Below, one piece after another: positions 13,343 to 14,533 of a stretch of 44,039 nucleotides of DNA. Each line of letters starts with the position of its first letter. Within the stretch, counting starts at the first letter, position 1. Below the pieces are notes generated by a model, which had not been told where the DNA came from, did no database searches, and worked only from the letters and a program-made list of their open reading frames with translations. A program made the position numbers and the translations under genes. This DNA comes from Alphaproteobacteria bacterium (GTDB taxonomy: Bacteria; Pseudomonadota; Alphaproteobacteria; Micavibrionales; Micavibrionaceae): positions 1 through 44,039 of the forward strand of contig JAIXWE010000011.1 in NCBI GenBank assembly GCA_027482195.1, given 5' to 3'.

Positions 13343-13378
13343 TTGACATACGAACAAAAAAAGAACATATTAGGAACA
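13343..13378 (+). promoter_or_regulatory. Putative sigma-70 promoter with LexA-type operator (GAAC-N7-GAAC-N7-GAAC)
   Basis: TTGACA (13343-13348), 17-bp spacer, CATATT (13366-13371); GAACA at 13352, 13363 and 13374, exactly 11 bp apart. Confidence 0.6.
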
Positions 13379-13490
13379 TAAACGCTCCATTTGCGCCTTG
13401 TCCCTTGTGGCGCTGATCGCGTTTTGTTCCCTGTCCTGTTTGATGCCCCGTATGCGCATTTTCCCCAATGCGTATGCGGGGTATTTTTTT
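13373..13490 (+). ncRNA. Candidate structured leader RNA or sRNA ending in an intrinsic terminator
   Basis: GGAACAtAAACGC (13373-13385) pairs with GCGTTTTGTTCC (13419-13430), enclosing GCGCC/GGCGC (13393-13397 / 13409-13413), followed by a terminator hairpin and T tract. Confidence 0.45.
13446..13490 (+). terminator. Strong intrinsic terminator-like hairpin
   Basis: CCCCGTATGCGCATT-ttcccc-AATGCGTATGCGGGG (15 bp including two G-T pairs) then TATTTTTTT. Confidence 0.85.
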
Positions 13491-13515
13491 AACCCTGATT
13501 TTTGGAGAAAGCCCG

Positions 13516-13851
13516 ATGTCCACTTTGTTGCCTGTTGATGAAAATACCAATCCCATCCAAGTTTTACGCTTACGTGATCTTGCAACTCACCGCATTACCG
13601 TTACCGCCGTTTCTGCCCGCACCAGCGTTGCCTTTAACCCCACCACCCGTGTTGTGACGTTGGTGGCGACAACGCCAATGTTCGTGCGTTTTGGTAATGC
13701 AACCGTGGCGGCTACGGTGACCGATCACTATATCCCCGCAAACGTGCCTTTCGATGTCGCTATTGGCGGTGATAAGAATGCCCAATTTACTTTTGTCGCC
13801 GCCATTCGCGCCGCGACGGATGGTGTTCTTTACATTTCTGAGAGACATTAA
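13516..13851 (+). CDS. Small phage-like protein (111 aa), possibly virion-associated or decoration-like
   Basis: ATG 13516 with RBS ggagaaa; ...TPMFVRFGNATVAATVTDHYIPANVPFDVAIGGDKNAQFTFVAAIRAATDGVLYISERH resembles small proteins from phage structural modules. Confidence 0.6.
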   Translation: MSTLLPVDENTNPIQVLRLRDLATHRITVTAVSARTSVAFNPTTRVVTLVATTPMFVRFGNATVAATVTDHYIPANVPFDVAIGGDKNAQFTFVAAIRAATDGVLYISERH

Positions 13852-13854
13852 ACG

Positions 13855-13928
13855 CAAAGCAAATTACAAATTTGTTTGTGAACTTAAATTTCAAAGCAAA
13901 TCGCAGATTTGTTTGTGAACTTAAATTT
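13855..13928. repeat. Two adjacent 37-bp direct repeats containing a palindrome
   Basis: CAAAGCAAATTACAAATTTGTTTGTGAACTTAAATTT (13855-13891) and CAAAGCAAATCGCAGATTTGTTTGTGAACTTAAATTT (13892-13928); 34/37 identical. Confidence 0.9.
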
Positions 13929-14533
13929 TAAAGCCGTGCACGTGAACGAAGTGCGGTAACAATTGTTCCGTCATCCAGATAATCCAACTCACCCCCCACG
14001 GGTACACCATGCGCAAGGCGTGTGATGGGAACGGAGAAAGGTGACAATTTATCTTGAACAATATGTGCTGTGGTTTGTCCATCAACGGTGGCGCTTAAGG
14101 CAAGAATAATTTCGCGGAAATCATGACGTGTGACGCGCTCAATTAATTGCGGAATGCGCAATTGCTCGGGTGTGATGCCGTCTAAGGCTGATACGACACC
14201 GCCTAAAATATGATAAAGACCTTTATAGGATCCGGTGCGCTCAATCGCCCATACATCTGCCACACTCGCGACCACACATAATAAATTGTGATCGCGGGTG
14301 GTATCGGCACAAATCCGGCATGGGTTAAGTGTATCAAGGTTTCCACAGATGTGACAGCTGGTGACATGTTCGGCCGCATCATCCATGGCGGTAATAAGGG
14401 GCCGCAAAACATCCATCTTATGTTCTAAAAGATAAAGGGCAACACGGCGTGCGGAACGTGGACCCAACCCCGGAAGGGTGGACAAATATTTAATCACCTG
14501 CTCAAGCGGTCCATGATCTTTACGCAGAGCCAT
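13928..14533 (-). CDS. recR: Recombination protein RecR
   Basis: LPGLGPRSARRVALYLL, CHICGNLDTLNPCRIC zinc finger, Toprim VVASVADVWAIERTGSYKGLYHILGGVVSALDGI. Confidence 0.97.
   Translation of the reverse strand: MALRKDHGPLEQVIKYLSTLPGLGPRSARRVALYLLEHKMDVLRPLITAMDDAAEHVTSCHICGNLDTLNPCRICADTTRDHNLLCVVASVADVWAIERTGSYKGLYHILGGVVSALDGITPEQLRIPQLIERVTRHDFREIILALSATVDGQTTAHIVQDKLSPFSVPITRLAHGVPVGGELDYLDDGTIVTALRSRARL

Follow-up and report, generated by a model that had tools for sequence, protein, structure and literature searches.

The GTA of Caulobacter (CcGTA) works with RogA and GafYZ (PMC9632790, PMC11150451). RogA is a LexA-like HTH/S24 repressor of GTA activators that binds a region with GGAA-N4-TTCC repeats (PMC9632790). 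In the GTA cluster of Dinoroseobacter shibae, a LexA site was predicted in silico (PMC6473078). FpGTA of Faecalibacterium is a podovirus-like GTA-like element in separate operons, and it was reported as the first with podovirus-like morphology (PMC12946183). The alphaproteobacterial LexA regulon has the box GTTC-N7-GTTC before lexA and recA. In phage lambda, the pR' promoter gives the short, terminated 6S RNA ahead of a late gene, with Q as the antiterminator.

We analyzed a stretch of 44,039 nt from a member of the Micavibrionaceae ("the window"), in which a promoter with LexA-type repeats precedes a 111-aa phage-type structural protein (P0001). The operators, their positions, their conservation, the shared cassettes, and the gene content are established by sequence evidence. 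We think it likely that the P0001 operator belongs to a domesticated podovirus (probably a GTA), one unit of which is under SOS repression and gated by a terminator; in this proposal, binding, damage induction, control by readthrough, particles, and DNA packaging are inferred.

Like CcGTA, the system has a LexA-like HTH/S24 repressor, a GGAA-N4-TTCC operator, dispersed loci, and terminators between promoter and genes. Unlike in CcGTA, structural promoters themselves carry the RogA-type site, and LexA would share control of them (binding is inferred). The D. shibae cluster is similar in its LexA site, but it is RcGTA-type and from another order, and no exchange between RogA and LexA is described in the sections of that paper that bear on it. 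FpGTA is similar in being podovirus-like and split among operons, but its host is Gram-positive, and the sections that bear on it describe no LexA/RogA cassettes. The resemblance to lambda is by analogy only: there is a promoter, a short terminated RNA, and then a late gene, but in contrast to lambda's Q, no antiterminator has been identified in the Micavibrionaceae set.

Operator and promoter upstream of P0001

The features of the locus are:

13343..13348, + strand: -35 hexamer TTGACA (nearly all of the 101 orthologous promoters have TTGAC in this position)
13352..13366, + strand: predicted LexA box 1, GAACAAAAAAAGAAC, in the spacer, +9 from the -35
13363..13377, + strand: predicted LexA box 2, GAACATATTAGGAAC, overlapping the -10
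13366..13371, + strand: -10 hexamer CATATT
13380..13397, + strand: conserved motif close to the transcription start, AAACGCTCCATTTGCGCC (about AACRCCANAATTGYRTC as family consensus), also seen in further cassettes of this genome and of the family
13380..13424, + strand: leader hairpin 1, from the fold of the leader
13442..13491, + strand: intrinsic terminator, a 19-bp stem (13442-13485) and U tract, from the fold
13504..13507, + strand: Shine-Dalgarno GGAG, read from the sequence
13516..13851, + strand: P0001, 111-aa phage-type structural protein, all-beta and jelly-roll-like
13928..14533, - strand: recR (RecR/Toprim in Pfam), a convergent neighbor outside the P0001 unit

GAACA occurs at 13352, 13363, and 13374 with an exact 11-bp period, just as the original prediction had stated. 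The resulting triple, GAAC-N7-GAAC-N7-GAAC (13352-13377), is found once in the whole window, versus 0.01 expected. Lone GAAC-N7-GAAC pairs are not rare (3 found versus 1.33 expected per window), so the evidence lies in the triple, in where it sits on the promoter, and in its conservation. At TTGACA-N17-CATATT, 10 of 12 positions match the promoter consensus, and the GAAC array covers the spacer and the -10. The third GAAC half-site is also present at the orthologous promoter in genome G029.

The source assembly (1.8 Mb in 125 contigs) encodes RecA and a LexA whose S24 part is enough, by itself, to pass the NCBIfam lexA cut-off. In this genome, GTTC-N7-GTTC stands upstream of the genes for LexA, RecA, and a Y-family polymerase, which identifies it as the genome's LexA box. 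It has 19 copies genome-wide, which is fewer than the reversed control pattern (107). The operator at the P0001 promoter matches this lexA/recA box, which is identical to the box of the alphaproteobacterial LexA regulon; the difference is that in the source genome, the box also covers phage-type structural operons. Within the GTA-like reading as a whole, 13352-13377 is likely to be a LexA operator on the P0001 promoter, although LexA binding and damage induction are inferred and there are no binding or expression data.

Thus, sequence evidence supports the original claim of a LexA-type operator over a promoter, and both of the checks that were suggested with it, the box upstream of lexA or recA in the same genome and its conservation at orthologues (see below), gave positive results. 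The locus had also been described as next to recR. recR is present, but it is convergent and is not co-transcribed with P0001, and the adjacency looks incidental.

P0001, its promoters, and its leaders across the family

P0001 has a match in 102 of 107 Micavibrionaceae genomes, nearly always as a single copy. (Most of these genomes were assembled from metagenomes, which makes an absence weak evidence.) Its predicted structure is confident (pLDDT 91.5), and it matches small uncharacterised tailed-phage proteins (E = 1.8e-8). There was no usable match in PHROG or Pfam, tblastn of P0001 against phages found nothing, and a fold search in the PDB gave no match below 1e-3. In G077 (L128 and L130), paralogues of P0001 are directly behind an ORF that, judged by eye, resembles a phage endolysin.

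A perfect LexA box is present in 42 of the 101 orthologous P0001 promoters, versus 8 of 6,832 control windows, and in 40 of the 42-43 LexA-type promoters, the box sits at exactly +9, counted from where the -35 starts. A different element, the palindrome TAGGA-N6-TCCTA (with up to 2 mismatches), is found in 52/101 P0001 promoters and 63/6,832 control windows; its position is -14 in 30 of those 52. Neither operator is clear in about 8 of the 101. The window has no copy of the palindrome with up to 1 mismatch, but sister loci have it, and so do about half of the orthologues, a point that the original prediction had missed.

We considered whether the palindrome might be an alternative LexA box. 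We rejected this because recA keeps GTTC-N7-GTTC in several palindrome-type genomes, so the palindrome belongs to another regulator. Genera g3, g22, g23, and g31 each hold both LexA-type and palindrome-type promoters, which suggests, without a tree, that the operator has probably been exchanged repeatedly.

Across orthologues, the motif near AACRCCANAATTGYRTC sits ~33-60 nt downstream of the start of the -35. The whole leader in the window is predicted to fold stably (z = -8.0), and an intrinsic terminator is found in 88 of 101 orthologous leaders, compared to 20 of 202 shuffles (10%). The median distance from the U tract to the start codon is 33 nt. This leaves little room for another promoter, so we infer that the protein is probably made by readthrough. 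The original prediction had named a structured RNA and/or the 111-aa phage-like protein as the product: the protein is conserved across the family and the leader RNA is predicted to fold stably and to end at a terminator, but the terminator with the 19-bp stem (13442-13485) had not been mentioned. A search of Rfam over the whole window found only a tRNA. A GafZ-type antiterminator with DUF6456, which we take to be GafZ's domain, was found in 0/107 genomes, and the Caulobacter control was positive.

A dispersed podovirus-like gene set and a RogA-like regulator

A sequence model of the cassette, from the -35 to the conserved motif, has matches in 105/107 genomes, mostly several per genome. Behind the best cassettes other than those of P0001 are capsid proteins, the portal operon, and a PG-binding protein. 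At portal promoters, GAAC-N7-GAAC lies behind the -35 in 23 of 30 genomes versus 0/115 controls, and these promoters usually have both the LexA box and the RogA-type palindrome. Of the capsid promoters examined, most have the RogA-type site and none has the LexA box. In the source genome, another cassette (L226:7678-9114) precedes a BMT5-like methyltransferase and an AlkB-like oxygenase; its promoter has the RogA-type palindrome at the equivalent place. A similar methyltransferase/oxygenase pair is behind a cassette in G002 (L234).

The portal operon belongs to a cluster on contig C9 of the source genome, which encodes TerL, the portal (PF12236), a T7-like scaffold (PF05396), the capsid (PF19821), tail proteins, and a GTA holin (PF11351). 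The cluster is divergent from an S24 repressor gene, is flanked by housekeeping genes (NhaA, isocitrate dehydrogenase, pyrE, and NAD kinase), and contains no integrase or replication genes, as judged on the C9 cluster only. The capsid is found in 92/107 genomes and the portal in 96/107, mostly as single copies, and divergence of the capsid is moderately correlated with that of RecA (Mantel r = 0.49, p = 0.001). The nearest capsid in phage collections is a 58% match from an unannotated faecal record, followed by a Pelagibacter phage (48%). The portal gene has an internal stop codon in G004, G009, G067, G084, and G104. With portal or capsid genes disrupted or absent in some genomes, decay of the element may be under way in part of the family.

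This gene content meets criteria for a GTA: head, portal, terminase, and tail genes are kept vertically without integrase or replication genes (on C9 only), and the genes are dispersed over several host-controlled loci. P0001, present in 102/107 genomes, is no stray prophage gene; we place it in a dispersed, vertically kept podovirus-like set of the Micavibrionaceae. The original prediction had not recognized that a podovirus-like, GTA-like gene set has several such cassettes, its locus among them. We found no Micavibrio GTA in the open-access literature that we searched.

Membership in two known GTA types was rejected. The tail protein GTA_TIM (PF13547) of RcGTA-type elements, which include CcGTA, is absent from 106/107 genomes, and the one hit is from an assembly with 6% contamination. 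For a GafYZ-controlled GTA, the result was likewise negative, with DUF6456 absent from 107/107.

Many copies of TAGGA-N6-TCCTA contain GGAA-N4-TTCC, and the palindrome is over-represented genome-wide in the family and is found near RogA-like genes. We call it a RogA-type operator on the basis of the match to the published consensus and the gene adjacency only; there are no binding data. In the source genome, the candidate regulator is a 217-aa HTH/S24 protein that adjoins pyrE and is divergent from the portal operon. Caulobacter RogA reportedly lacks key cleavage residues. In contrast, the 217-aa protein has retained Ser, Lys, and Ala-Gly in alignment with those of LexA, as have 7 of the 19 RogA-like regulators examined; others are degenerate. 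If RogA is cleavable in this group, a promoter that swapped a LexA operator for a RogA one, or the reverse, would still respond to damage, but this is inferred. In seven genomes (L388, L392, L393, L394, L400, L402, and L405), a RogA-type HTH is fused to PyrE (orotate phosphoribosyltransferase), and all seven have RogA-type P0001 promoters.

Proposed regulation and alternative explanations

We propose that LexA, bound over the spacer and the -10, would block the P0001 promoter, and that DNA damage would release it via RecA-stimulated cleavage of LexA. Transcription would first yield a short RNA that ends at the intrinsic terminator, ~30 nt before P0001, and making the protein would then take readthrough or antitermination. 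At the 5' end of the RNA, the conserved motif is likely to be a loading or control element. The sister promoters, for the capsid and the methyltransferase/AlkB pair, carry the RogA-type palindrome at the equivalent place.

Could the GAAC repeats be due to chance? About 1.3 pairs per window are expected anyway, but the expectation for the triple is 0.01, and the box has one fixed position in 40 genomes, so this is all but excluded. Another explanation is an ordinary podovirus prophage, or a defective one, with the LexA site serving plain prophage induction. This fits with the capsid's relatives in Pelagibacter and Vibrio phages and with the paralogues behind the endolysin-like ORF in G077 (by eye). 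However, the element is family-wide and mostly single copy, it has housekeeping flanks and no integrase or replication gene in the cluster of the source genome, and further cassettes are at unlinked loci. We consider a prophage to be unlikely.

It also seems unlikely that the product that matters is a short RNA, a small RNA that is induced by SOS and stops at the terminator, while the protein is made only by leakage. The terminator in 88/101 leaders, the very stable fold (z of -8), and the conserved 5' motif would favor this. But past the first ~20 nt, the leader is not conserved (there are DNA matches in only two other genomes, one of them at recA), the protein, by contrast, is kept in 102/107 genomes, and the same motif heads cassettes of structural genes. 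Least plausible, short of chance, is a particle that kills, or phage parts put to some use other than transfer. Evidence for packaging is indeed absent, but terminase, portal, and capsid are all kept, and a tail-only killer would need none of them.

Beyond the domesticated podovirus that we favor, a bolder reading is that this is an undescribed podovirus-type GTA that is core to the Micavibrionaceae and is jointly repressed by LexA and a RogA-like regulator. Their operators would be interchangeable on the same promoter, late genes would be gated by leader terminators, and a dedicated, unidentified antitermination factor would act at the 5' motif. We would not bet for or against this version. 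If true, the Alphaproteobacteria would gain a GTA-like lineage that descends from short-tailed phages and is tied directly to DNA damage, and this in the family to which the predator Micavibrio belongs. A promoter on which LexA and RogA operators have repeatedly replaced each other would be a natural experiment that shows how host stress circuits come to control domesticated phages. Terminator gating can be tested on the promoter-leader-terminator cassettes.

Separately, on contig C10 of G000 (L227, ~2182-2217), four GAAC/GTTC half-sites lie directly before an ORF for a hydrophobic peptide of 30 aa, which is possibly an SOS-induced small membrane peptide.
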